A stretch of DNA of 64,000 bases, taken from contig NC_089980.1 of NCBI RefSeq assembly GCF_036417845.1, forward strand, positions 132,892,516-132,956,515, given 5' to 3'. This document shows positions 35,701 to 60,200 of this stretch, piece after piece. The notes beneath the pieces were generated by a model. The model saw only the letters and a program-made list of their open reading frames with translations. It was not told the origin of the DNA and did not search any database. The translations under genes were made by a program, and so were the position numbers. Origin of the DNA: Apteryx mantelli. Its lineage: Eukaryota > Chordata > Aves > Apterygiformes > Apterygidae. Each line of letters begins with the position of its first letter. The stretch's first letter is position 1.

Positions 35701-38700
35701 AATATCACCAGAAATAACAATGATTTGTATGGGATTTCAATAACACCATTACTCTGTTGTCATTACAGAATTTCCTCTCTACAGTGGACATGATTGTTAA
35801 TGATTCCAAAATAGAAACTTGGGAAGCACTGGATATGCAGCAGCCACATAAAAGTTCTTTGTTACTGCTTTCAGTAGAAAGATTTTCAGAGCACCTCCAA
35901 CCAGTTAATAATACCATTCCTTTTGTCAACACAAATACCATTCAGCTAGATGGTATAGTAGTGACAGAAAATAGCAAGGCAGACTATAGTAAGAACTTCA
36001 CCAGTAAAGAAAACCTCACAGTTAATGTGCTAATAGGTGAAGCTGAAATTCAGACTCTGCCACAAAACTCAACCATTGTCAGTGTGGCCTACTCAACACT
36101 TGGACGTATTTTGCCCCAGAATAAGTCCATGCTCGTGAATGGCTTACTGCTAACAACAACTGTGAGCAGAAACAGAAGCCAGAGCATCTCTATTAATATG
36201 ACTTTTGCAAAGAAAAATACTTCCCTAAAGGATCCGCAGTGTGTCTTTTGGAACTTCGGTCCCAGTAGCGGCGGCGATTGGAATAGTAGTGGTTGCACAC
36301 CCACAGAGGTAGGAAGTGATGTCATTTGCTCCTGCACTCACTTGACATCATTTTCAATTCTTATGTCACCTGATGAATCCCATCAGGGAAGCGCTGAAGA
36401 TTATATTACCTACACTGGCCTGGCCATTTCCATCTTCAGTTTGGTGGTCTGCATTATAATTGAATCCTTAGTCTGGAAATATGTGACGAACAACACAACC
36501 TCCTATATACGCCATGTCTGTATACTCAACATAGCTATGTCACTCCTGCTTGCTGACATTTGGTTCCTTGTCACTGCCTCTATTCATAACAAAAAGCCTA
36601 TCTGTACAGTGGTCACCTTCTTCATCCATTTATTCTACCTCAGTGTCTTTTTCTGGATGCTCAGCCTGGGCCTCATTCTTTTCTACCGACTGGTCTTCAT
36701 CTTACACAACACAAGCAAGACCGCTCAGAAAGTGGTGGCATTCTGTCTGGGATATGGGTGCCCCTTTGTCATTGCAGTCATTACCATCGCTGTCACTCTG
36801 CCAAGGGACGTTTACACCAGAAAGAAAGTCTGCTGGCTCAACTGGGAGGACAGCAATGCTCTCTTGGCCTTTGTCATACCTGTCCTGGTCATTGTGGCCA
36901 TTAATTTGTTCATCACTGCAGTCGTCATAATAAAAATACTGAGGCCAACCATTGGGGACAGGACAAACAAGCAGGAGAAGAACTCTTTGATTCAAATTGG
37001 CAAAAGTGTGGCCGTCCTGACACCGCTGTTAGGCCTCACCTGGGGATTTGGCCTTGCCACCATCATCAAAAGCAGCTCCCGGGCATTCCACATCCTCTTT
37101 GCTCTGCTCAATTCTTTGCAGGTGAGTTACACATGTGCATGGGTTTTTTTTCTCTATGACCATTTAACATGTAGTAACATTACTGCAGTGCTGTGCTTGG
37201 GGAGAATAAACACAGTTTGCAAAAAAGTTCAGGTTTGTCTTACACATCCTTATTTCCAAAGGGCTCTTTGGGAAACCCATTCTAGCAGCATCATTAACAG
37301 ATGAGCCTTGCAGATAAAGCTAACATAAAGATAACTTCTGACTTTGACAGTTGCTTTGGGGAGAATTTGCATCCCAAAGATTAAAAAAATAACCATGCTG
37401 TATGCAGGTGGGCAAGCTTCAGCATGTCTGCTCTCATTTACAGTGCATCTGGAAGTATCATAGGATGTTCTTGTGGGTTGAAGTAATGAGGGAGTGTAAA
37501 CAGCAGGGAAGTCACCAAAACCAGCAGATCAGTACTAAGAAAAAAGAGGATAACTGACCGAAATCCAGATGACTGATTATTTTCAATCAATCAGTAAGAT
37601 TTTTCTAATAACATATTTAACTAGCCACCAGTATCCAGATATAAAAGGATTTCTTATGGACGCAATGGTTATGTCTACTCTGTCTCTTAAGGTGGCTTCA
37701 AGATTGCACGTTTCAGACCAAACTCACCTGCCTTTTATATTGTGAGCCTTCTAGCTTACCTTGGGGGCACAGGTAGGGCATGTCTTCCATACATGAAAGT
37801 CTATCCTACCAAGTATGCTTAATGCTAGGAAACTACCTGTGTCACTTCTGAAGACCAGATATACCTATGGTTTAGGCAGGCTAGGCCTGGAGACCTCTAC
37901 CATATCAGAGGTCTGTTAAGTGAGATGCAGTAAGAAAAATGCCCTCTACCAAAGAAATCAGAGTTTAAATAGTCAATATGGACAATGTTTGAGATAACTA
38001 TGAGGTACTGCACTTAAAAGGTTGATGTCATCAAGGACTGAATGTAATTTTCTGTCCCCTAGGGATTATTCATTTTGGTGTTTGGGACTCTCTGGGACAA
38101 GAAGGTAAGAATTCAAACTACTACTTATATTGTGTGAAAGATATTGTTGGAATTCAAACATAATTGCTGTATTTACTGATTGACTTTTTTTGAAAAAATA
38201 GATACAAGAAGCCTTGCTGAAGAGGAATTCACTGTCCAGATGGAGTTCACAGCAAACAAAGGTTAAATTCTTTCCCTAAGAATGTATTTCTGAGTTACCG
38301 TTGAACAGTCTAACACACTCCTTGTGTCTTTTTAGTCAAATGCACTTTATATTACTAATTATTTATTAGAACTGGTCAGTGAAAGAGTGCTCAGAGAAAC
38401 TAACAACATAACTACGAAAATGCTCCCTTCCCCCCTTTTTCAAAGTTATTTCACCTGTGGTTCAAAAATGAGAGGAGGTTGGTCTATATTTGATTATAAG
38501 CAATATATAAAAAAACTTGCTAAAGTCTGTAAGAAGAAATGTAACTGAAAGTTAGAAAAATCAGAAAATTTCAGTGGCACCATTAATATATGCAACCATA
38601 CCAGAAATGCAAAGGGAACTTCTTGGTAAGAAGTTCGGCTATGGGCAGGAAAGGATGGAGACTCTAACCCTTGGGACTTCCAAGACAGGTTAGCCCACAG

Positions 38701-41700
38701 TTCATGCTGAGAACAGAGGATGGGAGGAAGTAAGAATCTCTTGTCAAAACTGTATCCATCTGAAGCAAAGAATCAGACTTCACTGAGCCAAAAACAGCAC
38801 ATAAATGCAGATGGTTTTGTAACCGAGTCACCTGGATACACTCCTAGAAGATGAGAGATTTGGGTTCCATGCCCAGCAAACTCCTGCAATTTAGTACAGA
38901 ACAGTCTGGGGCTAAAAAATAGAAACAGTGTTGGGAAAAGGGCCTGGATCCTTAAGGGAGCTCCTGTAAGGCTCCTCTCACATGGTTGGCTATTACTGTC
39001 TTCCTGCTTCTGGTAGAGACGTGTTCACCCCTACCTCTGCTGTCACTGCCAACACTTCCCACAGGAAGCGTCACATTCCCAAACACAGAATATATAAATG
39101 TTTCAGCCAAGAGGAATAAAAAACACTAGCTCAAGAAGCCTACATGAAGATGGATATTTCTGGGTATTCTACACTGCAATATATTTAACTTCATGTTTCA
39201 ACATAACAGCTGCAGAGTAAAAAAAATGGAAGCCCTACCACATTAGCTCCTGAAAGAGGAATCATTAACCCATGTCATTCAAGATATTAGAGCAGAGATC
39301 ACAACGATCTCCTCCAGCCTCATCACCATAAATCTATGAGCCATCTCTTGCTCATCCCTTTGCAGTAAATTTGTGAGTGCTATGGTCTACTCTAACTTGG
39401 CAGCGCTTTTCACCAGGGAAATTATTCCACTGCCTTCTTCACTTCACCCTTGGGGAGCTCTTCTGGACAGCAAATCTCCTTTTGCCTCTTTTTAGTTTCA
39501 TCTTATTACATCTCGGTTCACTGCCTTTGTGGCTGCCATAATGTTCTCTTCCCTTGAAACGCTGGCTTCAACTTACACCTTTGCATTGATGACCCCTCAC
39601 CAAAGAAGGCACTCCAGGGTGGATCAGGGATGAAGGCACCAGAATTTAACCACTGGGGCTTGCTTTGGAAAGAGCAAATGGTGGGAAATGTTTGCATCGC
39701 TATTATACGATGAGAGTTTAGGCTAGTATCTGAACTGGCTTTATTCAGAAGAGCCTCTAGATGGATTGCTCAAGAACTGGAAAGCAGACTTGGAAGAATG
39801 ACGTGGTTAAGAGAACTGGGTATGTAGTCCCTAAGGAATGAAGGAAAGCATGGCTGGACTCTCAGTTGAGGGGGGCAGCATTGGCTCCAGTCATCCCAGC
39901 TCCCACAGAAGCACAGAATCGCTGAGGTTGGCACCTCCGGAGAACATCTAGGCCAACCCCATGCTCAGGGCAGAGTCAACTAGAGCATGTTGCTCAGAGC
40001 CACGTCCGCTCAGACTTTGAATATCTCCAAGGATGGAGACTCCACAACCTCTCTGGGCAACCTCTTCCAGTGTTCAAACACCCGCACGGGAAAAAAGTTT
40101 TCTCTTACGTTGAAGCAGAATTGCCTGTATTTCAGTTTGTGCCCATTGCCTCTTGTCCTTTCACCGGGCACCACTGGCAAGAGTCTGGCTCCATCTTCTT
40201 TAAGCCCCCCATCAGGTATTTACACACATTGATAAGATCACCGAGCCTTCTCTTCTCCAGTCTGAACAAGCCCGGCTCTCTCAGCTTCTCCTTGCATGAC
40301 AGACGCTCCAAGCCACCCAAACATCCTCGTGACCCTTCGCCGGACTCAATCCAGTATGTCCATGTCTCTCTGGCACTGGGCAGCCCAGAACGGGGCACGC
40401 TGCTCCAGATGGAGCCAGAACCAGGAAGTCTTCTCAGCACTAACTCTGGTATCAAATGAGAACACGTGTCCCAAAGACCCTAGGAAAGACACGGGGCTGG
40501 GCATGGTTCAAGAGAGGCTTGTGTCTGTCTGGAAGAGAGAGAGAGTGAAAATCTGAGAGCTGGACAGAAGGATAAGGTGGAATAAGCCATATCCTGCTGA
40601 GTGCAGAGAAGTGACCTGAGCTGAGGGAAGTCATGCAATGAGCCGCAGGGTGGTGAGAGTGTCTAGCTTGAATCTAGACGCAGTCCAGCCACCAGGCCTG
40701 AGTAGTACTCCAGATGTGGTCTGACCAATGCTGAATGAAGAGGAATAATCACCTCCCTCAACCTGCTGGCAACACCTGTCCCAGTGGAGCGCAGGAAGCT
40801 GTTAGCTTTCTTTGCCTCAAGGGCTGGCTCATGGTCAATTTGGTCTCCACCAAGGGCCCCAGGACCCTTTTTTGCCAAGCTGTTTTCCAGCCAGTCAGTC
40901 CCCAGGCTTTACTGGTGCATGGGGTTACTTCTCCCCAGGGGCAGGACTTGGCATTTCCCTTTGTTGAACTTCAGGAAGTTCCTGTCGGCCCACTTCTCCA
41001 GTCCGTCGAGGTCCCTCTGAATAGCAGTACAACCACCTGGCGTATCAACCACTTCTCCTAGTTTCGTATTATTTGCACACGTGATGAGGGTGTACCTTGT
41101 CCCATTGTCTAAATCATTAATGAAGATGTGAAACAGTATTGGACCCCATACTGACCCCACTGTATGTCCCCTCAAGTGACGTGCTGAAGGCCCAGAAGGA
41201 GGCAGCCTCTGATCAGCAAGGCAGAGCAGCAGTGTGATTTTTAGGTGCTTCAGCCCTTTTCCGCATCAAGGCTCTGTGTCAGAATGAGACAGGGATGATG
41301 AGGATTCTGCCTCACTCCACTTGGTCTGGGATCCCCAGAATCATCCACCTGTTCTTTTTTTTTTTTAACTGGCACTCAAAGTATTCTGGCCATTCTGCAG
41401 GAGTATAAGTGCTGGAAATTTGGGGCTGGGAACATTCCCTAATGCGTTTTAAAGTGCTGTTCCTTCTCTACGGTTTGAAAATGGCAGCTGCTGGATGTGG
41501 TGCTATTTGGACTGTGGGAATACTTCCTTTTCCCCAGGCAGCTGGATTAAGTCATTCCCAACCAAGAATAAACAGTACAACTAACAAATAAGCATGTCAG
41601 TTTCTTCATTCCCTCCTGTATTGATACATCCTGCAGAATAAAGTAGAGAGAACAACTTGTTAAGTCATAGGCCCCAATTCTGAATTCATTTTCGGCAAAA

Positions 41701-43788
41701 TCTTCTGGGCCAGACGCTTTCAACTCTGTTTGATGCTGCTGAAACTGCCCCAGACAGTGCGCCTGTTTTCCCTGGCTGTTCTGCTGATAAGGAACAAACA
41801 AAGCATGATCAAAATCTTTGATCAAACTTTTTAATGATTTATTTCAGACGTGATTTATTTACATTCTTCCTTTATCACCTTATGAACTAGGTGACAGTGC
41901 ACAGAAGTAATTTTCCACATCGCATTATAACCTAAAGAACAGCAAAGAACTGAACAGAGATTTGTTTTCCATACTTTTTTTTTTTTTACATATCTCTTGC
42001 AGGAATCCCATTAAATTCTCAAACCTGATGGAATCATTTCAGAACCAAAAAAGAAACTTCTTTTGTTTTCCGTAGCAAAAGCTCACTTTTTTCCTTCCCA
42101 CCTGGACTGTACAAAGCTGTGTTCCATTGCCCTCTAGTGGATCAAGTTAAATTTGCCTCTGATTATCTCAGCCCATTGGCCTTCCCCAAAAGCATAAAAA
42201 TCACAGTTTTTCTGGCTACCTTAATGGATATTCTCCCTCAGATGAGGGACTAGAACTCTGTGCTGTCTGGCATGACAGACTCTGAAGCCTAAGCCATGTT
42301 CCCTGGCCAACAGTTAGATACAGCCTGTTTCTTTTTGTGTCCTGTACTTTATCTCCTTCATTGCCAACATGAACATGCAAATGTATGATGCCCCTTTTTG
42401 GACTGCCTGCTTGTACCACTGATCAGCATTTTACTGTAACTATTTTTTCCCCCTAAATGTGACTACAAAGAAAGTTCTAGGCTTTTGACAAAAAGCAATT
42501 TCTCTCTTACAGTCAACCTCCCTGATCCTGGTCACTCCAATGTTCTCTATGAGCTATCCATTTTCAAGAACTTTTAACAACTTATGTGGCAAAACAGGTA
42601 TGTGATGATAGACTTCTCCTACTGAAGTTCAAAAGGGATTTTTCCTGAGTTCTAATTCCCAGAGTCTGTCTATCCCCATATCTATCAATCTATTCCTCTA
42701 TCCATCCATCCATAGATGGCAGTTTCATCTTCTAGTATGAAGGAATTGTAATAACTCAAGTCATTGGAATCTGTAGCATAACTGTATAACACTAAAAGGA
42801 GAACTGGATGGTAGCATGTCTCATCAATTCTAAAATCCACTAAGCTTTGAGCTTTGTTTTTAACTCAGTGATCTCATGACACAGTGCTCCTCAGTTTTGT
42901 GTTCCTGTACTCCCTACCACCTTGCAGCTTATAGCTGTAGCTATTCAAAGGTTCTCTGGCAGTTATTTTATGGAGGTTACCATTTCAGGTATGACTTTAT
43001 TTTACAAGAAGCAGTGATGAAAATATGAATAACTTAATTCCTAAACATGTGATCTTTATGTTCAACTGCTGCTCAGAGTAGATGGTGAGTTTGGTCAAAG
43101 TGTGGGATATAAAGGAGGTTGATATAAAGATAAGCAACTGCTTTTTAATAATCTGGTTATGAGTTAGATAGTGGAACAAGAACTTAGTCTCTGACTCTGA
43201 TACTGAAAGTATATGTGAGCATACTAGCCAGGTACAAAAAGCCTCCCACCACAGCAATAAAACTTGCCTACAACTGCCTCCCACGCTGCTGTGCCTGAAA
43301 CTCCCATATTATCACCACTTGGCATGCTCTGCGCGTCAGGGTTTCAGTTTAGAGCCTCGTGGTCACAGGAGGGAGGGAGCTGGGACTCACCTGAAGAACA
43401 TATTTTCTAGATGGTTCCCCATGCTCAAGGAGAACCACTCAGCCGCTCCATTCGTGTGAGTAAATTACAACCCTATAACATGATCCTCAGTTCAAACTGA
43501 CAGAGCTAGGCTGTGCTACCAAACACATTGACTTTTTTATTCTCTGGCATTGCCATAACCCAGAAATGGAAGCTAGTGTCAGGGCTGCAGGGCAAGTCAA
43601 GGCCTCTGGGGTCATCAGGATGAGTATCTCTAACTGTCCTTATTTGTCATTGCCAACATGTCTCACACTGTTTGTCCTCATGTCTAATCACTTTGCTTTG
43701 CTTTGCAGGAAAATACAGAATATCTTCTTCAGAGCCATCCACCTCTTCCTCTGAAAACACTTCCAAGTCATATTCTTTGCTGAACTGA
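17657..43788 (+). CDS. ADGRF5: Adhesion G protein-coupled receptor F5 (GPR116), complete, 20 coding exons
   Basis: Twenty coding exons with consensus splice sites and fully consistent phases join into about 1350 residues, matching the family length (human 1346). Order: signal peptide (about 1-20), a basic RQKR furin-like site (51-54), a Cys-rich stretch (113-172), a SEA module with a GSV cleavage motif (237-239), three clear Ig-like domains plus a fourth degenerate one (about 283-690), the GAIN domain, a GPS with cleavage expected between Leu1003 and Thr1004 in a CTHLTSF context, seven transmembrane helices, and a Ser-rich tail ending in SLLN. In mammals ADGRF5 is a plasma-membrane receptor that limits surfactant pool size in lung and acts in endothelium and kidney; that role is known for the family, not shown here. 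The tethered-agonist start TSFSILM is intact. MEP1A lies downstream in convergent orientation, as in human. Confidence 0.97.
17868..17960. repeat. Possible old MIR/L2-type fragment
   Basis: The string 'ggggaaactgaggccccgaaag', followed about 50 bases on by 'ccaggaactgagctcttcttgattccca', follows the order of the MIR-type core and 3' region conserved across amniotes. Short and diverged, hence low confidence. Confidence 0.35.
20213..20273 (+). CDS. ADGRF5: ADGRF5 coding exon 2: furin-like site
   Basis: A short exon between 'ctccaccag' and 'gtatgt', phase 0 in and phase 1 out, encoding residues 36-55. It ends in WQRQKRN; the RQKR motif fits proprotein-convertase recognition, in line with processing of the ADGRF5 N-terminal region known in mammals. 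Confidence 0.88.
20847..21017 (+). CDS. ADGRF5: ADGRF5 coding exon 3: N-terminal ectodomain
   Basis: Pyrimidine-rich acceptor 'tttctttttcag' and donor gtgggt, phase 1 to phase 1. It encodes VLTFDFPAVEYTVDIEVSL and a following segment with the sequons NVS and NVT. The pattern of alternating hydrophobics suggests a beta-rich, SEA-like fold before the Cys-rich exon. Confidence 0.9.
22406..22585 (+). CDS. ADGRF5: ADGRF5 coding exon 4: cysteine-rich segment
   Basis: Phase 1 to phase 1, donor gtaagg. It encodes a compact module with nine cysteines, including CCSCESGYAWP and GPYCEP, reminiscent of a small disulfide-bonded EGF-like unit. This Cys-rich stretch between the N-terminal segment and the SEA module is characteristic of ADGRF5. 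Confidence 0.92.
23935..24062 (+). CDS. ADGRF5: ADGRF5 coding exon 5: SEA module, first part
   Basis: Acceptor 'tttccttacag', donor gtaaag, phase 1 to phase 0. It encodes LVINMSVRLDTVFTNDL and a charged helix YKKYKADLEKA, the usual strand-then-helix start of a SEA domain. Confidence 0.92.
24559..24617 (+). CDS. ADGRF5: ADGRF5 coding exon 6: SEA module, middle
   Basis: Short exon between 'tttgtttgcag' and gtaagg, phase 0 to phase 2, encoding FNESYRCLPGFVLATVTSFR. It continues the SEA fold and leads straight into the cleavage motif in the next exon. Confidence 0.9.
25302..25444 (+). CDS. ADGRF5: ADGRF5 coding exon 7: SEA cleavage motif
   Basis: Phase 2 to phase 1, donor gtaagt. It begins RPGSVSVNYEVKA. 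The GSV-S-V strand is the autoproteolysis motif of SEA domains, in which cleavage occurs before the Ser; the following helix completes the module. The residues needed for self-cleavage are present. Confidence 0.93.
26225..26437 (+). CDS. ADGRF5: ADGRF5 coding exon 8: first Ig-like domain, N-terminal half
   Basis: Acceptor 'tcttcccag', donor gtatga, phase 1 to phase 1. It shows the Ig signature: EGDTITLICET (B-strand Cys), VTWYHSG (C-strand Trp), and ends MDSG just before the F-strand Cys in the next exon. Splitting an Ig domain over two phase-1 exons recurs in exons 11-12. Confidence 0.95.
27620..27853 (+). CDS. ADGRF5: ADGRF5 coding exon 9: end of Ig 1 and start of Ig 2
   Basis: Phase 1 to phase 1. 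It begins GSYMCTF (F-strand Cys of the first Ig) and continues into a second Ig-like unit with VTCDS and WKVNGPVNITG. Acceptor 'gctttacag', donor gtaaga. Confidence 0.94.
29218..29382 (+). CDS. ADGRF5: ADGRF5 coding exon 10: second Ig-like domain, C-terminal half
   Basis: Phase 1 to phase 1, acceptor 'cactctag', donor gtaaga. It encodes NCTEYKLKV and TTYTCELHTGHG, giving the F-strand Cys of the second Ig-like domain and the final beta strand NIRVTYFR. Confidence 0.94.
29520..29738 (+). CDS. ADGRF5: ADGRF5 coding exon 11: third Ig-like domain, N-terminal half
   Basis: Phase 1 to phase 1, acceptor 'tcatctcag', donor gtgagt. It encodes VGRSFNLTCTSD and VSWEIQDRNN, then SVLSVRTATEDWSG: the B-strand Cys, C-strand Trp and the D-x-S-G lead-in to the F strand. 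Confidence 0.95.
29993..30211 (+). CDS. ADGRF5: ADGRF5 coding exon 12: end of Ig 3 and start of a fourth, degenerate Ig-like unit
   Basis: Phase 1 to phase 1. It begins GTYICTFSQ (F-strand Cys) and continues through VTVTVVP into a further beta-rich unit with LKCCIDAKAS. That unit pairs with the next exon and looks like a diverged Ig domain. Confidence 0.94.
31737..31898 (+). CDS. ADGRF5: ADGRF5 coding exon 13: Ig-like/linker segment
   Basis: Phase 1 to phase 1, acceptor 'tttccatgcag', donor gtaaga. It encodes NLLCYYTMYNYTEP and AYCKFVNRIGDE. Two cysteines probably complete the degenerate fourth Ig-like unit before the pre-GAIN region. Confidence 0.9.
32511..32541. repeat. (AAAC)n simple repeat
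   Basis: About seven AAAC units with flanking A-runs in ADGRF5 intron 13. Confidence 0.97.
33559..33755 (+). CDS. ADGRF5: ADGRF5 coding exon 14: Cys-rich pre-GAIN segment
   Basis: Phase 1 to phase 0, acceptor 'caatacag', donor gtaaca. It encodes a hormone-receptor-like Cys pattern (HCSGSL, KPCTEL, VTYVCSSTSWVVARNDC) and ends in PINNLLLNAE, the first helix of GAIN subdomain A in subfamily VI receptors. Confidence 0.93.
34747..34923 (+). CDS. ADGRF5: ADGRF5 coding exon 15: GAIN subdomain A
   Basis: Phase 0 to phase 0, acceptor 'ttccattccag', donor gtaagg. It encodes LPEYLEELQRKSAEE and LGAIVTILDLVSSIP, the alternating helices typical of GAIN subdomain A. Confidence 0.94.
35769..37121 (+). CDS. 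ADGRF5: ADGRF5 coding exon 16: GAIN, GPS and TM1 to early TM7
   Basis: A single 1353-base exon (451 codons, phase 0 to phase 0), residues 812-1262. It carries the rest of GAIN with many N-glycosylation sequons, the GPS (CVFWNF, then CSCTHLTSFSILMSP; His at 36339-36341, cleavage before Thr at 36345), and transmembrane helices from DYITYTGLAISIFSL through LLGLTWGFGLATI to HILFALLNSLQ. The large intronless GPS-7TM exon is a feature of the ADGRF subfamily. The donor ggtgagt follows directly. Confidence 0.98.
37122..37304 (+). other. Open read-through of ADGRF5 exon 16 into intron 16
   Basis: If the donor at 37122 is not used, the reading frame stays open for 60 more codons to a stop at 37302-37304. 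It would give a receptor with an alternative end after partial TM7. The extension has no known similarity, and an AATAAA lies inside it at 37205-37210. Most likely ordinary intron; noted because the open length could mislead gene predictors. Confidence 0.35.
38063..38104 (+). CDS. ADGRF5: ADGRF5 coding exon 17: end of TM7
   Basis: A 42-base exon, phase 0 to phase 0, encoding GLFILVFGTLWDKK. It completes TM7 and the membrane-proximal cytoplasmic turn. Acceptor 'tgtcccctag', donor gtaaga. Confidence 0.95.
38202..38261 (+). CDS. ADGRF5: ADGRF5 coding exon 18: cytoplasmic tail, proximal
   Basis: Sixty bases, phase 0 to phase 0, encoding IQEALLKRNSLSRWSSQQTK. This is the amphipathic helix-8-like, Ser-rich start of the tail. 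Acceptor 'tttgaaaaaatag' is a weak pyrimidine tract; donor gttaaa is non-optimal but has the GT. Confidence 0.87.
38999..40702 (+). repeat. 1.7-kb direct duplication, copy B (in ADGRF5 intron 18)
   Basis: Near-identical to 5117-6819, with the same internal order (old CR1-like part, unique part, CR1 fragment, about 290 bases of non-CR1 tail). It lies in the large tail intron between coding exons 18 and 19. At its right edge, at 40703, the sequence passes straight into a different CR1 body; at its left edge the flank is non-repetitive. No target-site duplication was seen. Confidence 0.96.
39909..40415 (-). mobile_element. Truncated CR1 LINE fragment (within duplication copy B)
   Basis: Same CR1 piece as at 6027-6535, carried along by the duplication. 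It reads as reverse-complement CR1 from 'cacagaatcgctgaggttgg' to 'cacgctgctccagatg'. Not coding. Confidence 0.93.
40703..41180 (-). mobile_element. CR1 LINE ORF2 fragment
   Basis: Begins exactly at the edge of duplication copy B with 'tagtactccagatgtggtctgacc', a CR1 internal phrase. The minus strand encodes reverse-transcriptase end motifs: GPILFHIFINDLDNG, then ANNTKLGEVVDT where a functional copy has the catalytic ADD-type box, then LEKWADRNFLKFNKGKCQ. The catalytic aspartates are replaced by Asn, so this copy is dead. Confidence 0.94.
42513..42597 (+). CDS. ADGRF5: ADGRF5 coding exon 19: cytoplasmic tail, middle
   Basis: Acceptor 'tctctcttacag', donor gtatgt, phase 0 to phase 1. It encodes STSLILVTPMFSMSYPF and ends NNLCGKTG, equivalent to the TSLV...LFGKTG stretch of mammalian ADGRF5. 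It lies 4.25 kb from exon 18, across the intron that holds the duplicated segment. Confidence 0.93.
43709..43788 (+). CDS. ADGRF5: ADGRF5 coding exon 20: C-terminus and stop
   Basis: Acceptor 'ctttgctttgcag', phase 1 in. It encodes GKYRISSSEPSTSSSENTS and ends SLLN followed by TGA at 43786-43788. The Ser-rich run and the LLN terminus match the conserved end of ADGRF5. Confidence 0.95.
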
Positions 43789-45120: not shown

Positions 45121-47440
45121 TATTTATAGAGAAAGCCATTTTTGTTTGAAATTGTATACTGTATGTAATACTAGAACACAGTTACAGATTAAGAGTTACT
45201 TGAAAATCCAGAATCTCTGAACTGTATGGACAGTGGAAACTTGAAAATCAGACCTTTACCTTTCCAGAAAGGCCATTTATTATTCCAAGTAAAATTTGAC
45301 TTTGGACAGCCATTTGGTCTAACCTACTCCAGAAGTAGTTTATGCAATAATGCTGCAGAAGGAATCCCCTTTCAGTGGGATAGGCTGCTTATAAACTGTG
45401 CAGTGTGAGTCCCTATAGACAGCACAGTTCCACCACAACTTATCTCTGCAGCCATTTCATCTCTGAGGTTTCATCACATCTCCAAGATCAGGTAAACCTG
45501 GGTCTAGTGTGTATGTGAACGAGAAATCAGGGTGTGATGCTGAGCTACCCAGCACTGAAGGGCTACCTTTGGGTAGATCTTCAAAAGGTCCTTGTCAGCA
45601 TTATAAATGCCGTGATAGTTTGTGAAAGAGAAGTGGCTAGGAAATGAACTGTGCCAGCCTTAAAGACTAGCAGCCAGGATTTCACTGGTCTTGACACAGG
45701 GATAAAGAGAAATGGAGAGAGAAGGAGAGCTGGAAGCGAGTGCTGAATGAAGGAAGAATGGCAAACAGTAAGCCTGACTCCCCTGCATCCTGACCAAAGT
45801 CCTCCAGTCATCCTCTCTCCTCAAGTAAAGGCTGCTGCAGGGCTTGTTTCATGATTACTATGTATGACTATCACCCACATACCTCCCCCAGGTAAGCTGG
45901 AAGGGTAAGTACACCTACCAGGTATAAGTACAGTGTTACAAAACACAATGAGAGCCTCTATCTTATTAAAGAGCTGAGGAGGCCTAAACAGGCTCAAAAT
46001 ACTTTCTTGCTAAGGAATATCCCTGGTAGCTGGAAAGGTAGAATGCAGGGGAGCACAACACATAAAATAAGAGACCGAGATTCTGAGTCCGAGCATGTGC
46101 CTGTGCCAGGCGGAATAGAGCAGTGAGAGCTCTCTTTTGACCTGTCAAGCCCACCTGATCTCTGGAACAGGTGGGATCTCTCCCTTACCCACCTTCCTTC
46201 TGTGGCTGTGGGTGGGGAACAGTCACTACCCTGGCACCTTCATGTGATTTATTTCAATTCAGGAAAAACAGCAAAGGATGGAATTGTGACATTCAGGCCT
46301 CTGAGGGACAGACCTGCCTTCTTCCACCCTCCCTAGTTGTTCCTGGACTGTGTCAATTGCCGACCATCTCTTGTTTATGCTACGAGCCCAGATTTCACCC
46401 TTTGCTTCTAAAAGGCTTTGGGAATTCTCAAAATGAACGGTGCAAAGAGGCCAGGACCATTTTATCCATAGTGCAGCAGACAGTGAAAATATATGTGCCC
46501 CAAACCAGGGGTTTACAGGTGTGCAGTTCCGGATGCCTTTTCTTTGGACCATGAAGCCAGTTATGCTCTGATCTCTGTGATGCTTTCACAGGCTAGTGGT
46601 CTGGCCAGTGTGTGCTTCTTACACTGCCCCAATAAACTTATATTCAGGAAACAGCTGCATTTTGGAAAAGTCAAATTAGGCAGGAATAAGAACACCTCAT
46701 GTACAACTTGCATAGTCTTTAAGGGCTATCCAGCTGGATACTTATGTTGCAGCACCTGAGATCACAAGTGGATTGGTCAATCCCATGAGCAGATGAAATA
46801 AGTAATTTGTTAAAGGTTTCTGTCCTGTATCCTTCCAATCATCCTGGCCTCCACAGTCTTCCTCACACATCCATTCTCCCTGCCCCATAGAGCTTTGGGC
46901 CCCCCTAAACCTCCTGCCCTGGAGGCACACTGAGCTTTCTGCTGACTCATTGTCCCTCACCCACCTCGTTGGCCAACAGCTGGTAGGAAATTAGATGTGC
47001 TGCAGCAAGGGCCAAGCTACAGAGATGCTGAATGTCCATCTGGGGCACACAGCCGACTACGCAGCTCACTGTGCCAAGAGAACGAGTAGTGGTCACATCC
47101 TGCCTATCTCTCCCTTGGGGGAAACTTTAATAAGCTCTACCCAACCATCAATACTCATGAACTTACAAAGAGAACTTTTTCAGCGCTTTTGGTTAAAAAA
47201 AGGCCAACAGGATTCAGTGCTATTGAGAAGCAGGGGGCTGGCAGGCAGCAAACACACACAGACCATGTGATTTCCTGAGAATTTTCCTGTTAGAAAACCA
47301 GGGTAAAAGATACGATACAATCTCCACAAAATCTAGGATCATTTCTTCAAACTTACTCCAAGTTCTTTTCACTTTTTCTTCAGGATAAGGAGTGCTAATC
47401 CTCTTACAGCCTCTTCCTGGATCATTCCTCCCAGGCACAC
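45121..47440. other. Intergenic DNA between ADGRF5 and the CpG island
   Basis: No coding exon, RNA gene or repeat family recognised. Open frames are short and lack similarity to anything I know. Confidence 0.6.
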
Positions 47441-47640
47441 CTCCCTCTCTCCCTTCTCCCCCCCCTTCTCTCTCTCCCCCTCTCTCCCCCTTCTCTCTCT
47501 CCCCCCCTTCCCCTCCTCTCCCCCTCTCCCCCCTCCCCTTCTCTCTCTCCCTCTCCCCTTCTCTCTCCCCCTCGCTCTCTCTCCCTCTCCCTCTCTCCTT
47601 CTATCTCCTCCCGCTCTCTCTCCCCCCTCTCCCTCCCTCC
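47441..47640. repeat. CT-rich polypyrimidine simple repeat
   Basis: About 200 bases almost free of A and G on the plus strand, made of irregular CTCTCTCCCC-type units. The long open frames on both strands here (Ser/Pro/Leu-rich plus, Arg/Glu/Gly-rich minus) come from this composition and are not genes. Confidence 0.97.
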
Positions 47641-47789
47641 GGACACTTTTCGCTCCCACACACGCAGCCACATCGGAAGTGTCAGTGGGAAAACCTGGCC
47701 GGGGTGTGTACGCGAGCACCCACCTCCCACTCCCCGGGGCCCCTGTCGCGGCCCTTCTCCCCACACGGAGGCGGGCAACCGCCCCCCGC

Positions 47790-47802
47790 GTTGCCTGGCA
47801 AC
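47790..47802. promoter_or_regulatory. Perfect X-box palindrome (RFX site) 1
   Basis: GTTGCCTGGCAAC: two perfect inverted half-sites (GTTGCC/GGCAAC) separated by one base, matching the RFX consensus GTNRCC-N(0-3)-RGYAAC. Confidence 0.8.
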
Positions 47803-47861
47803 GGCCGCCGCCGCGCGTGCGCGGAGCCCGCCCCGCTACCCCGACCGTTGGGGCGGGGCTC

Positions 47862-47876
47862 GTTACCCGGGGCAAC
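47862..47876. promoter_or_regulatory. X-box palindrome (RFX site) 2
   Basis: GTTACC-CGG-GGCAAC: both half-sites fit the RFX consensus with a 3-base spacer, 60 bases from site 1. Two such sites within 90 bases in a CpG island are typical of RFX target promoters. Confidence 0.75.
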
Positions 47877-47996
47877 GGCGGCCGGGCCCGCGGTGTCCCG
47901 GCGGGGAGGTGCGGGGGCACTCGGCTACTACGAAACGCTCCAGATCGGTAGTGAAACCGGGGAATAAAAGCCTGTTCCCAGCCCCTAGGGAAGGGC

Positions 47997-48101
47997 ATGG
48001 AGCCGCGGCCCCCGAGAAAGAAGAATCCCCACCCCCACCCCCCGCCAGCATTGCTGGGAGCACCACCAAACCGGGCAGCCCATGAGCAAGACACCGACTG
48101 A
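47997..48101 (+). CDS. Candidate short frame downstream of the CpG-island promoter
   Basis: An ATG in 'gggcATGG' (good start context) opens 34 codons (MEPRPPRKKNPHPHPPP...) to TGA at 48099-48101. The first residues align with the start of the minus-strand frame beginning at 52279 (MELLSLRKEVPPPC). Conservation of the region around the ATG in two copies argues for a first exon or a repeated unit; the peptide has no known domain, and the true exon may splice before the stop. Weak call. Confidence 0.25.
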   Translation: MEPRPPRKKNPHPHPPPALLGAPPNRAAHEQDTD

Positions 48102-48449
48102 AAAAAAAAAAGGGAAAACTGGAAAATTTTACTGCCCTTTCATAGTTTTTTTTTACATAGTATTTCAGTAACAGCATTTAGCACACTGCAGTTCAAAGTC
48201 GCTTCAGTATCTAAACTGCCAGCGACACAAGGACTCTGGTGAAATGATGGGATTTCTTAGGAATATGGTGCTGCCAGCATCACAGGCAGCAGGTCAACCA
48301 GAGGCCAAACCAGGGCAGAAGCCCCCTGCAGCCAGGCCAGCCCTGGCCAGGCCGCTGAGCTGCCTGCCAAAGCAGGGCCCATGCATACTACCCCAGGGAT
48401 GGGCCCTGCCCCTGGGAATGGTTGGGGCAATTCCAAACCTGATTCCTAC

Positions 48450-48657
48450 CTTGGGCCAGGGGCTTTTGAAGCCAGGCCTGAAGACCACCATCAGGAGAGC
48501 CAGGAGGACGTTGCAGGCTGAGGGGATGTTGAGCAGACACAGGAGCAAAAAGCTCAGTGCCATGAGCTCGCACATGGCCCTCAGCCTCCGCAGCTCCATG
48601 CCGCCAAAGGGAGCGCACCTCAAGCGTGCAGCCTGCACAGCGCTCGATGTCCAAGTC
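48450..48657 (-). other. Exon-like segment, unknown gene or relic
   Basis: On the minus strand a 208-base piece lies between an acceptor ('ttgaaacag') and a donor ('cccaag|gtagga') and has two frames without stops. One frame (DLDIERCAGCTLEVRSLW...) is mixed; the other contains a hydrophobic run (MCELMALSFLLLCLLNIPS) that could be a membrane segment. I do not recognise the family. It may be an exon of an unannotated gene, a decayed duplicate, or chance in GC-rich DNA. Confidence 0.25.
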
Positions 48658-48840
48658 CTGTTTCAAGAGTGCAAGCCAAAACACAGCACACAGCTCTTAG
48701 CAGTGGTCCCCTTACAGCGACCTAGACCCTCCCAGCCCAAGGGAGGTCAGCATGACACAAACTGCTGCTGAACAATTCCCTTCCCATGCGGTCCACCATC
48801 CTCCCAGTCCCTGCCCCCTCTTCTCTGCTCTTGGGCTCAC

Positions 48841-48882
48841 CCTTTGCACATTGCTCCGTGCCCCAAGATTGGCAGCACCAAT
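48841..48882 (-). other. Small exon-like segment upstream of 48657
   Basis: Minus strand: pyrimidine-rich acceptor 'ctcttctccttgtggcag', 42 bases encoding IGAANLGARSNVQ in one frame, then a strong donor gtgagc. Good splice signals on both sides, but no family recognised. It lies 183 bases upstream of the 48450-48657 segment on the same strand. Confidence 0.22.
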
Positions 48883-51733
48883 CTGCCACAAGGAGAAGAG
48901 CAAAAGGCTGCCAAGAGAGCAATTTGGGAAGAAGAAGGGCACAGTCAGCTCAGTCGATCTGCCTTCCCTGGTTGCCCGCTGCTGGGGCTGGTTTCACACG
49001 TGTTCCACTGGGACACCCTGTCCTCGGCAAGAAGTGCAAAGAATCGTCCCCAAACGTTGCTGGGCTTTGCTGAGGGGATGTTTCCATGGATCTGGCACTT
49101 GCAGCAGGACACGCTGAGGGAGGGGGAGTTCAATCCCAGCACGTCCCCCAACCAGCAGCGCATCCACCCAGTTTCTTGGGTGGGCGCTGCCCAAGGAGGG
49201 AGCGTGCAGTGGTTTTTGGGCACTGAGGAGGCCGACAGACACAGACCGATCGCCGCAAGAGGAGGAGAGACTGGGGAGAGACCAAAGGAGCCAGCTCTTA
49301 CCCGGCTGCCTTGCTCCTTCGTCCCAGCTCAATGCCACACTCTTCACCCACTCGCTCGCTCGCTCGCAGGCAAAGTGGCACCTGAGGCTCTCTCGGCCCC
49401 ACCTTCAGAAAGAGCAGGGGTTGTGATGGCGACATCACTTCGACACACCTCGGGTGTGAGGGCACCCCCGGGGCTGAGCTGTCACTCCTGTCACCCAAAC
49501 ACTGACAGTTCTCAGCACTGCAAGGACGAGCCCAAGACAGCTGCAGCCATGAGAAACCCTGACAAAACCGGAGACCCGTCCTTGGCAAGCCCGTACAAAG
49601 GCGGTGGCCTTTGCCTGCCAGTGCCAGAATCCCGTGTCCTGGCCGTGCAGGGAATCGCAGCAGTGACATCTCCCCAGACACTTAGGCCAGTGCCAGCACA
49701 CCGCACACTCCCTGAAGGCTCCAACACAAGTGGGCCCTTTCGCTGGTGGTGCCAGGATGGCTGGACAGGCAGCAGCCTGCCAAAGGCCTGCGTGGGAGGG
49801 CTGGGCAAGTGCCCGGCTTGTGTTACGGGGGCCCTCTAAGAACTGCCTGACTCAGGGCTGACACTCGAGGAGCCACCGGCACGTGGGCAGCATGTAGCCT
49901 GCCCTGCCACCAGGTGCCCACGGGCCCTGGCATGCTGCAGACCCCTCCGTGTGTGCCATGGGGAGGAAGGTAGCTGCTGGAAGACGAGGCAGAGGCCCTG
50001 GGAGCTCTTCCTCAGTCTTCTCCCCTGCAGCCCCACAAACACCCTGACCTTTTCAGAAGCTAAGGGGTTAGTGTGGAATCTCTTTGCCGTGTTCCAGGTC
50101 AGTAGTGGTAGCAGTCTCTGTCACCTTGGACCACTGTTGTTTTCATTTCAGTGTTGTGAGGTAGAATGGATTTGTAAGGCAAGCAAGATATTTGCAATTG
50201 CTACCACTTGCCAGAGTTGCAGGTCTGTGCTAAAAAAAGCAAAGTCCAAACGAGCTTTAAGCTAACACAGCTCCATCAGCCTTACTGGCCTAGAGCAACC
50301 AAGCAAGAATGATGCCCTGCACTGAAATCTTGTGGGTGGAGGTGTGCAGTAAAAGAGGTTCTTCATTACACTACAGGAACTCCAACTTCTCATGCAAGTG
50401 ATACAAGCTAAGCAAAGATCGACAACTGGAAACACAATTCTTTGCTTTTAGGGAAATCTCCTAGATGCCAGTTTGAAGAAGAAACAAAGACCTACTCAGG
50501 CTTTTGCCATGAGCTAAATTCACCGGACCTTCAGATACTGTTTGCATTTGTCCACAAAACAATTTTTCTCCTTGGTACAACACTGTGTATAAAGAAATCC
50601 GAGATACAGTTTCCAAAAAGCACCATTTCTCTAGAGAAATTCCAGATGACAAGTCAGGATTATAGCAATCCCCCTCTTGGAGGATAGGAGTTAAGGGGCC
50701 TTGCTAGAGCTGGCCTGGTGTTTAGAGGTACAGATCAAACTAACTCTCAGGCTAGAAATTGCAGGTACTCAGTGCTTCAGGGTAACTTCATGCCAGCTTT
50801 ATTTAAGAGCCTTAGAAACTCATGCTTTCAACATTCAGCTCCGACGACTGTAGCAAAGCTGCCTCTATTAGACATGATGTTTGAGAGAGCCAAGGGAGAA
50901 AACACATGACTTTATTGCAATACAGACACTGGGAAAAGGAACTAACGAAAACTATAGTCCTTAGGAGCTTGGTTTTCTTATTGTTTATAGCCCATGGGCT
51001 GACTGCAGCATTTGCACTTGGGAGATAGTTTATGCCATGATGATTACTTTTACTTGAACTCCAGGAGTCCCAGAAAACTGCACTGCACCTGTAGCTATGG
51101 CTGCTTTCATCCATTCTTGTGCTGTATTCCTGCATCAACTCAGAGGCAGGAAGATCCAGAAATGTGAACCACAAGCCTGTATTAAAAATGGATGAGTTAA
51201 CTCAGCTTGGAAGACAACACAGGAAAGACAAAGCTGCTCTCTGAGGCTGTTCTTGCCCTTGTGAGAGTTTTCCCCTTCCAACAGTATAGCAACAAGCATC
51301 TGGCCCTGCAACAACTGTTGCTGGTTTTGCTGCTCTGTTCAGAGCATTATCTTGCCCACCGTGTCTTCTCTTCTGTGTCATGGTGGTGCATCCAAATCCC
51401 TGTATTTTGGAGGAGAGTTGTTTCACCGTCTTGATATAAGGAGCTCCCAGAATTACATGATTTGAAGAGCTGCAAGTTCCTGGGCACTTGGGGACATGCA
51501 GTTCTGGACAGAAGTGCTTTCTCTGCCTTGAGCTGCTAAGAGAGGACTGTCTTGTGTCCCATGCTGTGGGATTCCTATGAATGCCAGTTTGGCCTGAGCA
51601 GTCCCTATGTCAGGGACAGCTTCATTTGTCAGAGTTTAGGAGGTTTCCATGTGATGGTCTGCTGATGAAATCTCTTTTAGGCTTGTCCTTTTGGGCATCT
51701 TTTTGGAAGACTGACACTGTCAGTCTTCAGATC
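48883..51733. other. GC-rich, then ordinary intergenic DNA
   Basis: 48.9-50.0 kb is GC-rich and holds long overlapping open frames on both strands (the longest is 331 codons, + strand, 48844-49839), none with a domain I recognise. From about 50.1 kb the composition returns to ordinary intergenic DNA without recognisable features. Confidence 0.5.
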
Positions 51734-54240: not shown

Positions 54241-57200
54241 CTGCGAAAATAAACCACAGATTCATGTGTAGCAGGGATTGTGTCCCACCCTATAGACCCA
54301 CCTATAGGTCCCACACTCACTGTTCTGCATGGGCAGTTCCCATTAGAGAGGTTCACATCACAACATCCCCACCTTGTTGGGAGGCTATTTACATCCCCTG
54401 AAAAGCACCGCAGAGAGGGTTTTCCTGGGGCTGCTAGTAAAAAACAGTCACTGCAGTGAGGTGTTTTGTTCCTGCTGTTGCCTAAAAACCTAGTAGCTCA
54501 GATCTTTGGGGATTGTAGCTCTGAATACTTATCACTTGTGTTACTTAGTTCATAAGAAAATCGAGGCTGACAGGGGAGAGGTCAGTGGTACCTGCAGCTT
54601 GCTTTCCCTTTGATATTCACACAGACTCCATCATTCTGGCAAGGATTTGGGTTACACGGGTCTTGCAGATAAGGAAGCCAGTCTTGAACAGGCTCAGTAT
54701 CCTGGGCTGCTCTCTTGTGCCGTTCGAGAATGAGGCCTTCCGTGATGGAAGATTGTGCAGGCTCTACAGGGACTTCAGTGTTATTGAGGTGAATTAGATC
54801 TTTTAAAGAAAGAAAGAGGAGAGAAGGACGTCAGATAACAGTGAGTGGTTTTATTCTATGCAGTATTCTTTGTGTCAGAGCTTCACAGGCTGCTTTGTGG
54901 ACTGGAGGAGACTCCTTGTCCATAAGCCCCTTAGAGAGCTCTTGCTGTGCCACAGGAAGTACTGCATATTTAAAGCACAAAATAGAAAATAATACTGAAT
55001 ATATGGTAACTAGTTAGGTAAATCAGAAGCATTTCCTGCTTTGGAAGACTGTGATAAGTGTGACTGCTCTTTTTGAAAACAAACACAATGGAAAAGGCTT
55101 TTTAATATGTTCACATGCCTAGAAATGGAGATAGCTACTGGTTAGGGTGCTTAAAGGTGCCTAAGAAGTTAACCCTCAATAAATCATTGCCATTTAGATT
55201 CCTCTGAACTCACAAACACTTCAGTTGATATTGCCTGCTGAAATTAAGGTGAACGAATCCTTTTAAAAGTTCTTCCTGTTAGAAGAGAAGAGGGCTTAGA
55301 GACTGGAGACAATAGTTATTTGACTGAGCATGTGAAAAGAGATAGATAGAAAAGAGACAGAAAAGAGATGATCCACTTGTTTTTGTAAGGAGAAGCTAGA
55401 AAAGAGTCTTTACCATGAAATTCTGCAAAAATAATCAGATCATCATTTTTCAGGAAGCTTCTCCGTCTCATCTGGCTGTGGGATATGAAGTTATTCCACC
55501 CCCAGTCTATACTTCTATAGCAATTGCATGAGGCATCAAATTTTCCAACAATAGATGGTCTCTCCCATATTAAGGTTGTGTTAGCGTCTGCAAAGAGAGT
55601 ATGGGTGAGAAATGAGCACCATAAAATCTTCCAAACTGGAAGTATGACATGACTTTTACCCCACATTAAACAGGATTTATGCTGCAAAATCAAGTTCAGG
55701 GCTCAGATGCCCAAAGAAGTCACAGAGCACTGACAAACTATGGGTGCCAGCAGGTGCTTAGAAATAGTCTACATGAGGACTCTTAGCCCATGTGAGGGCA
55801 TTTAAATTCCACAGCTCTCCTTTCATTGAGGGCTAAACTAGTTCAAATTACTTTCCCTGTTGTCACCAACTAAGAGCACCCTCCTGCATAAGGACACCCC
55901 TCAGCATGGCTGAGTGCTCACATTCAGCTTTTAAGCACCTATGGTTTAGAGTCTAATGGGTTTTGTTCATTGCTATGATTGTGTTAAAAAAAATCATACC
56001 TGGAATTTAAAACTTCCTACTGAAAAGGCATGTACCATTGTTCCACTGGAAAAAGTAAAGACGGATGGAAACTCATCGCTAGTATTTTATTCTGCAGCAA
56101 ATTCAGTATTGTCCTTTTCTTATTTCTTTGAATTACCACACCCATAGGGAATCCTAGGCCTGGACATAGAACAGTGGTGCTACATGCGATATAAATCTGG
56201 AGCTACAAGACAGTCCCTATCTGAAAGAGTTTGTAGCCTGCAGTCTACACCCAGCAAAGGGAGATAAGTTTCAAATGCTGCAGACTGATCTCACAGGTGT
56301 TTGCAGGTATTTTGTTCCTTGAATACAGCTACAGTGTGAACCCTATGCTTTCAGACCATGTATATTCAAGTTAACTGAGCCCCCAAAATGTAGTTTTAAC
56401 TTAATTAATGTTGTATTAGCACTGGAATACAGCACCCTGCTGACATTGCACTATCATGTGCTGACGTAACACTCATCATATTGGGCACTAACATGAAAGA
56501 GCACAGAAACTAGGAAATACATTCTCAAACTGCAGATAGAATGGGATTTGGCAACTCTTTGGCACAGGAGAACTGTGTCAAACTCAGATAGTCAAACTCA
56601 GACATCCCATGGATTCTTCATAATAACAACAACAACCCTCTTTGCAACACTTTTCACATCAGATGGCCTTTAATAGACAGGAATTCTGAGTCATACACAG
56701 GGAAAAGGCCCAAATCAGGAAAGGCAGACAAAGTTGCCCAACTTTTGAATCCTGCACTCAATCCTGTGGCTCAGACTCCTTAGCTTTCTTTTTCATCATT
56801 TTTTCCATTTTCATGCAAACACCACTTACCTGAGATAACATGGTTTTTGCCTGTGGTGAAGCTTCTACTTGCGGACATCCTTTTCAAGATGTCAGGATCC
56901 TGGTCCAGCACTGTGAGGATAGCCTGGCGGTTCAGAGCTGGCCACTCCAGAACACCGTCGTTCTCTCCACTGCACAAGTGAAAGGCAATCCGAGTGTAGC
57001 CACTGATTCTGGAGTGGGGATACAAACTTATGCCATAGCCATAACCCTCAGGGCTATAAAACCGAGGGCTTTGAATAACACTGCTCGATGTGTTTTGGAG
57101 GATTTGGCTGAAATTCCGAATGACCCACACAGCCGTGGGACAGGGTGTTTCTGTGAGCATCACATCATCGATAGCAATCCCACCAGATGAAGAGCTGGGG

Positions 57201-60200
57201 TCGCCCTTTAGTCCTTGGAAGAGGTATCGGAACTTCTTTTGAGCATTGAGGGTTACATGGGCAATTTTCCAGTTATAGTCATTATCCGCTTTTGTAAAAG
57301 AAAAGCAAAACTGCCATCAGCATGATTAGTCATATTATGAAGCAGCTTATTCCTAGCCATCCATCCATCCAAGCTGCATTTTTAGGCAACTGGTTTTCTC
57401 ACAGAGTCCTGAAGGCTAGAGATCTTAAGTTGCTATTATGATTACAATATACTCACATTACAAGACATTATCATCTAAATGCCTTGGACACATTGTATTA
57501 GGAAGTATGCAGATATTAGTGAATGACAGTCTCTAATTCAAAGGGCAAGATGCTAAAGGCCAAGACATAACAAACAGATGGGAGTAAGTATCCCAGGATG
57601 TTGGAATCAAGTATTACCACCAGTTTTTCATGAACTTGTCCTTCTTCCATGAAATTCCAGCAGCTCAGTATAGGCAGGTTATCACGTCTTGGGTTTTGAC
57701 AGCATTAAATGCATAGTCCCACGGTAGCTGGATTTGTCCTATGCAGCAAAATCACCCAAAGTGGGAACTCACATTTCCAAAATTACCTGTATTTTTTTCA
57801 TTTCTGGCCATATAAAAAATCAGCCTGGGCTTCTTATTGAGTAATGTGAGCACAGGTATTTACATGTCAGCAAGTCAGCGTCAGATCATATTATGGCCAG
57901 TGGAAATATAGACTGATAAAACTCCAGCAAAGTTTGGGGTCCCATTCATTAAGTGCAACATAATATTATCAGGAAAGTTGTGACTTCTGCTGTGGACCAC
58001 CTGAATTGCACTATTAAAAGCCACAGTTTCACTGACGCATACACTTCTGCAATACCAGAATCATTAGCTGGATTGCAAGATGCTCTTCTGGTAGGTTAGG
58101 GAACACCTTTTGAATTCTGAGCCAATTCACCATATTCCTGAACTCAGTAAATCAACCTTTCCTCTCCCAATATTTTGTATATTCCTCATATTTCCAGAAT
58201 TACCTTGAAAGGTTTGGATTTTCCTCATCTTGCGAACATTTCCAGTGCCATCATCCTCTTTGACCCAGATGACCAGCTTGTCGGAAAGGCTTCCTGTGAT
58301 CCTATAGAAGAACTGGAGGCACTGCTGAGTTCTCTTTGGATAAAGGATTCGAGACTCTAGAACTGCCACCTCATCTGCCTGGCCAGAGCTGGTACTGAAG
58401 TACATGAAATAGCCAGCATCTGGGAAGAAAGTGCAGAGTATCAGTGTCTCTTCCCAGCTTTCCTGCTAGCTGCATAGTAGAAACCAGTCATTTCAACCCC
58501 ACTCTTTTAGTAGGCCTAAATGTAGTAATTGACATAAATAGCAGAAGGAAACAGTATATGATAACCAGTTAAGATAGAACAAGGTAAGAATATGACTAGT
58601 AGTTTAGCATATATATGTTTGTAACTCACTGCAGGCTCCTTATGTCAATTTTGTGTCAGTTGCTTTAGCTGGAAGTTAGATGCCTCAGAAATGTCAAAGA
58701 TATGAGACAAAAATGATATAGGGCCTTCCACACAGAGAAGGGTTGAAGGAAACAACCTAACTGCAAGTAACTAGTAGACATAATTATTACTTGATTTAGA
58801 TTGAAGATAAGGTGATATGTTCATATGCTATTACCTTATAAAGAATAAGATAATTTTGTATCAGTGATTAAGATAATAAAAAAGGGTTGGACACTGAACT
58901 AGCACTCTCCTGACCTTGAACATGGAGAAGCTCCTTTTTACAGCTTGTCCAAATACTTTTCAAAACTTAGCTCCTCAATTTGGGGATTTGGGGTAAGAAT
59001 TTTTACCCCTCTAATTTAATTCCCCACTAACATTCTCTGAAGTGATCTTTACGTAGATTTGAAGTATCTACCTTTATCCTTATATTTACCTTTGTTTTGA
59101 TTTGACATTCACAAATTCACCATTTGCACACATTTCTTATCTTGGTATCACACGACCTTGTCGCATCTTATCTGTATTGTATTGCTCTATAGCTATTCAT
59201 TACAGTCTATGATTACACTATTAAGTGAAATTCTTTTAGCTATTGTGTGAAAGCCTCCTCTTCTTGGGGCAGGTTTCTTGGACTCTCATGGTTGCAGCTA
59301 GCATCTGGGGCGTCACCAGTCAAACCTGCAGCTGCATAATCACAGTACAGCCACCTGCATGGCCAGTGGAGCTCTCAGAGCTATTCTGTGTTTCATGTTC
59401 CTTCTAACCAGGTCTGGGGAATATTCTCTGTTGCCTCCCACCTGGTAGCAATGCTTTGATCACATACCCTATGGAAACTTTGTCAAGGGTGCCTAGTTGC
59501 TTTATATGCACTGTTAAGCAAGTAGGATCTATGATTACTATTGCTCCAAGTGGGAGACAGGGCTGTGAGCCTTATTCAGGTGCCTAACTTTGTTGTGGAG
59601 TGTGTTATAGTATCAAAGCCCCAGAGGAACTAGACTTTATCTCCTTTTTGTTAACAAAGAGAAACATTAACAAAGGCAACATTAAGCACCTATGGCAGAC
59701 AGTCAGGATATGGTCTTTGGGGACTTCAGCAAGGGCATACAGGGATCAAAGCAAAAGTCTGGCTGCTAGGTCCTCTCTCTGACCATTAAGCTGTACTTTC
59801 CCTTCCTCAGGTAGGCCAGGAAAAAGTAAAAAACACTGGATTGGCGACTGTTTGAGCTAAATATGGTCCATCTGTGTTAGAAACCTAAAATTAGCCCCCA
59901 CTTGAGATAGCTGCAAAAGCAGTTCTCCAAAAGTATCTAAATTCCTGATGGAGTTAATGAGCCTTTGAAGGCCTTCAAAAGGAGAGGCACTCCCTAACCT
60001 GGCAATTCATTTAGGCACTCTGGAGATCCTCAAAGGCACCTACCTCTCTCCATTAACTCTTCAGGGAACACGGTTACTTATTTTATGCTAACTGAGTCAC
60101 TAGATGCTAAAGCGTAAGTGCAAGTTAAGTACTTATTTTAGACAGGCTCAAACCCGATAATATCAAACAACTCAGCTGAACTCTTTTTCAGTAACAGTTA

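Follow-up and report, generated by a model that had tools for sequence, protein, structure and literature searches.

CpG islands that lie away from annotated promoters and yet have promoter-like sequence are known as orphan islands (Illingworth et al., 2010; PMC2944787). According to the same source, orphans make up about half of mammalian CpG islands, number more than 10,000 in mammals, and many of them start transcripts. In the case of RFX2, binding sites occur near start sites, and motif discovery in mouse testis returned a 14-bp inverted repeat (PMC4498915). RFX2 itself is reported as a likely target of A-MYB in mouse pachytene cells (PMC2797782), and of the 23 H3K4me3 peaks that 3'UTR-piRNA genes show in rooster testis, 21 coincide with peaks of A-MYB (PMC8514520).

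A CpG island of Apteryx mantelli, described here, belongs to one of these known kinds, the orphan CpG islands, and probably to a second, the promoters with RFX sites. Like the orphan islands of Illingworth et al. (PMC2944787), it is located away from annotated promoters and has promoter-like sequence; unlike those mammalian islands, it comes from a non-mammal, carries two RFX palindromes and is known from sequence alone. It resembles the RFX2/RFX3-driven promoters known from ciliary and spermiogenic genes (PMC4498915) in having X-box inverted repeats within CpG-rich sequence that looks like a promoter, but its palindromes measure 13 and 15 bp instead of 14, and no ciliary or sperm gene body was found alongside. 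The promoters of A-MYB-driven pachytene piRNA precursors and testis lncRNAs (PMC8514520) are similar in being intergenic and CpG-rich, with MYB cores and no coding product seen; in the present island the MYB cores are only weakly enriched, and the likeness is one of sequence.

The window, i.e., the whole 64-kb stretch of DNA that was analysed (C3:132892516–132956515, in a searched genome of 1.504 Gb), contains two convergent genes; the gap from the last domain-bearing piece of one to that of the other measures ~17 kb. Domain searches and an exon score place the pieces of an ADGRF5-type gene at 20847–37121 on the + strand, including an exon-like stretch (20847–21017), ADGRF3_N (22405–22578), an Ig match (26248–26442; 27.4 bits, just under the cut-off of 30), and GAIN/GPS/7TM (35760–37121, where the 7TM stretch ends). 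This 7TM stretch has ADGRF1 as its best solved relative (389 bits), and no ADGRF5 chain is present among the 42 matches listed. ADGRF1 presumably has no Ig domain, and the Ig match therefore favours ADGRF5 over ADGRF1 for the left gene. Pieces of MEP1A occupy 54594–62650 on the - strand, with Astacin at 62423–62650, MAM at 58190–58426, MATH at 56846–57133, and EGF, below the Pfam cut-off, at 54594–54656. The MATH stretch matches meprin alpha with 155 bits vs 75 bits for meprin beta, and Astacin, MAM and the weak EGF of meprin alpha follow in order on the - strand. The 3' parts of both neighbours, as placed by their domain-bearing pieces, face the island, which is thus away from any known promoter and between the tails of an ADGRF-type receptor (+) and meprin alpha (-), as the preliminary description had it. 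Among titles and abstract starts, no paper was found that describes a promoter located between these two genes in birds; a turkey paper (PMC8470100) contains both gene names.

The island spans 47421–48130, without assigned strand, and its 710 bp with G+C of 0.67, CpG o/e of 0.73 and 51 CpG exceed the CpG-island thresholds (at least 200 bp, G+C above 0.5, o/e above 0.6). At its left lies a CT tract of ~200 bp, a near-pure run of + strand pyrimidines at 47440–47640 (131 C and 2 G) that is purine-rich if read leftward. This tract directly adjoins the CpG-dense part of the island, at ~47640–48000. In 200-bp bins, CpG o/e reaches 1.06 (28 CpG) at 47801–48000 vs 0.20 for the 64-kb window, and such retention of CpGs implies little germline methylation. 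The preliminary description presented this as the only CpG island in the window; it is the sole substantial one, and a weak second patch is found at 49171–49450 (o/e 0.57). A DNA search of the own genome, which passes over simple repeats and very common words, matched the place of the island once and revealed no second copy, so that the island is not a repeat or a recent copy of another promoter. An origin as a retrocopy or repeat, considered in view of a poly(A) run at ~48101, after the island, was rejected for the same lack of a second copy. Searches of the window for tRNA and Rfam families gave no matches.

Two palindromes of X-box type are located in the island, both without assigned strand and 72 bp apart: GTTGCCTGGCAAC at 47790–47802 (GTTGCC and GGCAAC with T between them; 13 bp, spacer 1) and GTTACCCGGGGCAAC at 47862–47876 (GTTACC and GGCAAC with CGG between them; 15 bp, spacer 3). 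The motif scan also gave an isolated half site, GTTGCC, at 47774–47779 on the - strand. Against GTTRCC-n0..3-GGYAAC, which we take to be the consensus form of the X-box, each palindrome scores 12/12 and no other place in the 64-kb window reaches 11/12, so the two palindromes noted earlier are both exact and unique in 64 kb. The weak point of the case is their spacing, since lengths of 13 and 15 bp depart from the canonical 14-bp inverted repeat (spacer 2) reported for RFX2 (PMC4498915). Among 423,684 order-1 Markov islands modelled on the island, 371 had one X-box and none had two, and in an order-2 simulation no X-box of any kind appeared in 4000 islands.

The exact 13-mer, which is the spacer-1 T/A variant, occurs at 107 places in the genome, and its reversed control, a count lowered by its CpGs, at none; the 16 spacer-2 variants together give 183 places vs eight for the reversed control. 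Contig C23 has 24 of the 100 places listed, 18 of them in pairs 133 bp apart, and nine exact X-box pairs with this distance are among the places listed at C23:9.1–10.3 Mb. On C23, L062 at 9.15 Mb resembles L063 at 11.66 Mb (91% over 1.9 kb), and on another contig L064 (C24:5562906–5564906) holds a CpG island in which the exact 13-bp X-box appears three times at distances of 77–78 bp. The sample taken for context comprised 68 loci (L001–L008 and L010–L069), with C23 represented by three; the window's own site, seven listed places on C28–C44 and seven unlisted places stand outside it. CpG-island context (513 bp) is present at 23 of these loci and absent at 45, against a background of ~1% (4/360 overlapping windows from 12 stretches of 2 kb; 11/1270 in the window). 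Because this background is small and leans to large contigs, it was split by contig: island context is found at 5/29 loci vs 0/240 background windows on C1–C5, and at 18/39 loci vs 4/120 background windows on the other contigs. By a hand estimate, G+C content accounts for only about a threefold rise. The 13-mer is enriched in CpG islands, yet it is no promoter mark by itself.

Other elements accompany the X-boxes, including motifs that we take to be of ETS, NRF1-like and MYB type. The + strand carries an ETS-type core CGGAAGT (47674–47680), the NRF1-like GCGCGTGCGC (47813–47822; one base off the consensus as we assume it), GC boxes, among them GGGGCGGGGC (47850–47859), and AATAAAAG (47963–47970), which can be taken for a TATA-like box and just as well for the poly(A)-signal hexamer AATAAA. 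The last three had been listed before and are indeed present; the motif scan found neither CCAAT nor TGACGT in the island. Three CAACGG MYB cores fall within 47799–47878 (AACGG at 47800 and 47874 on the + strand and at 47845 on the - strand), two of them overlapping the X-boxes at their right ends. Their number compares with a simulated mean of 0.63 (P 0.024, and P 0.056 for the wider YAACKG, both uncorrected for the number of motifs tried), and the 23 island-context loci of the 13-mer have on average 1.4 CAACGG per 613 bp, with three or more at 3/23. MYB cores are only weakly over-represented in the island and are found at other island sites as well. The ATG at 47997, 34 bases after AATAAAAG at 47963, has the good context claimed for it (G at -3 and +4), but opens an ORF of just 34 codons (47997–48101, + strand, stop included).

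Direction was approached through splice-site-like signals and skew. Donors were scored with a weight table (maximum ~8.6), by which sites of at least 4.5 occur at 0.5 per kb on the + strand and 0.8 per kb on the - strand. No + strand donor of at least 3 is present at 47200–49200, the best having 2.9 at 47908. The top donor-like site of the island, gag/GTGGGT, lies at 47724 on the - strand, reading leftward; its score of 4.9 is common by chance at the density given for that strand. Further - strand donors score 3.4 at 47441, 4.3 at 48450 and 4.7 at 48841, and the sole - strand acceptor of at least 7.5 to the left of 47724 within 37–48 kb is at 40528. GC skew changes from -0.97 at 47440–47640 to -0.19 at 47641–47803 and +0.04 at 47804–47940, which would make a leftward RNA rich in purines, an effect due mainly to the CT tract. 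The island is framed on the - strand by an acceptor of 9.0 at 48097 and the donor at 47724; the best codon score of the framed piece 47724–47984 is -8.9, long open frames are expected at such G+C, and the reading of the island as an exon inside a gene that runs leftward is not favoured.

As to the product, Pfam gave no match at E up to 1 in the three + frames of 46.0–61.0 kb and the three - frames of 36.0–51.0 kb. ANKRD66 or another ankyrin gene was rejected as a candidate in the same ranges. The exon score was trained on the window's own receptor and meprin pieces. Three exons used for this training reached 26.9 (receptor), 6.7 and 8.7 coding bits, and two exon-like receptor stretches outside the training set, labelled by eye (20847–21017 and 27620–27853), reached 5.4 and 2.6. 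The best candidates in the gap have 2.2 bits (42513–42597, +), near the 2.6 of the weaker receptor stretch, and 1.5 bits (50031–50097, +). The power of this score is weak, the Astacin piece (itself in training), Ig and EGF being missing from its list. On neither strand did Pfam or the weak-power exon score detect a clear coding exon in the gap; short or domain-free exons could escape both. A - strand ORF starting near 48600, with a donor-like end at 48450, was rejected as coding because related copies carry indels whose lengths are not multiples of three, and its third positions are not those that change fastest; its per-bin P values are inflated, as the copies share history. A non-coding product is favoured on these grounds, and the direction is uncertain, a leftward transcript appearing slightly favoured over a rightward one.

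To the right, at 48274–49994, lies a diverged member, without assigned strand, of a GC-rich family clustered on C1 and C3. This copy is 70–83% alike to the family in aligned pieces, with best-kept blocks near 48825–48925 and 49335–49425. The family has 96 listed matching pieces, that of the window included, at 1.6–10.5 Mb of C1 and 123–139.6 Mb of C3 (e.g., L086, L087, L088, L089, L090, L094), drawn from the 40 of 51 candidates that were scored, so that places elsewhere are possible. One C1 copy and one C3 copy are 93–96% alike, and the clusters therefore look young and the window copy an outlier. The family looks non-coding; in a 10-kb cluster piece read in six frames (E up to 0.1), only reverse-transcriptase and endonuclease domains were found. 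The adjacent stretch 50048–51213 has one further genomic relative found, 67.5% alike, which is L095 in the C3 cluster at 139.51 Mb. Elsewhere in the window, 5117–6819 and 38999–40702, ~1.7 kb each and 34 kb apart, are 98.8% identical and may represent a recent duplication or young insertions; parts of them resemble L094, a locus with pieces of reverse transcriptase.

The island is likely a promoter. We lean, with some reserve, towards an orphan CpG-island promoter that would be bound by RFX and divergent, making non-coding RNA in RFX-expressing cells. The island itself, the two exact X-boxes, their rarity in simulation and the enrichment of the 13-mer in islands point in this direction and fit what PMC2944787 and PMC4498915 describe, and to this extent the RFX-linked orphan promoter of the preliminary description is borne out. 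Such an island would be unmethylated in the germ line, as its CpG retention suggests; RFX-family dimers would bind the two palindromic X-boxes, with help from NRF1, SP and ETS factors and perhaps A-MYB; and one or two non-coding transcripts would start in RFX2/RFX3-rich cells, for which pachytene spermatocytes and multiciliated epithelium are candidates. A leftward transcript toward the ADGRF5 tail may be slightly favoured by the donor of 4.9 at 47724 and the purine skew of 47440–47640. A bolder proposal, which we consider quite improbable, is a joint A-MYB/RFX meiotic promoter, divergent in pachytene spermatocytes, whose lncRNAs, possibly piRNA precursors, would run antisense into the ADGRF5 and MEP1A tails, the GC-rich member of the right flank being a lone ancestral-like relative of the C1 and C3 clusters.

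The island might instead be a distal element bound by RFX, an enhancer or a poised Polycomb island serving ADGRF5, MEP1A or a farther gene without a stable transcript of its own. This is possible, if doubtful: only about one third of RFX2 peaks in mouse testis are in promoters, but the strongest peaks favour them (PMC4498915), and although orphan islands are often methylated in development (PMC2944787), the CpG-dense core has motifs of promoter type (NRF1-like, GC boxes, ETS). The preliminary description placed here the start of an unannotated, lineage-specific gene or lncRNA reading rightward. For a protein-coding gene of this kind speaks the good-context ATG standing 34 bases after AATAAAAG and downstream of both X-boxes. 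Such a gene has become unlikely and its rightward reading found no support, with an ORF of just 34 codons, no + donor of at least 3 at 47200–49200, no Pfam domain in the three + frames of 46.0–61.0 kb, no clear coding exon by the weak score (2.2 and 1.5 bits for the best + gap exons vs 26.9 for a training exon, the receptor stretch outside training having just 2.6), and a non-coding-looking copy of a GC-rich multi-copy family within 2 kb to the right, into which it would run straight.

The absence of a gene body found nearby would suit a decayed promoter, out of use after its gene was lost or moved, but the o/e of 1.06 at 47801–48000 and the intact state of both palindromes are hard to square with long neglect and make this very unlikely. 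An artefact of chance or composition (GC-biased conversion, assembly) is scarcely credible: the island does adjoin the CT tract and GC-rich family DNA, but two palindromes occurred in 0/423,684 simulated islands and no second copy was found in the genome.

By itself the island is ordinary, since orphan islands are numerous in mammals (PMC2944787). If the orphan promoter is active, it would add one more RFX-controlled non-coding promoter to the genome, and would suggest that X-boxes inside CpG islands, such as those at the 23 loci where the 13-mer lies in island context, can be listed from the genome sequence itself.
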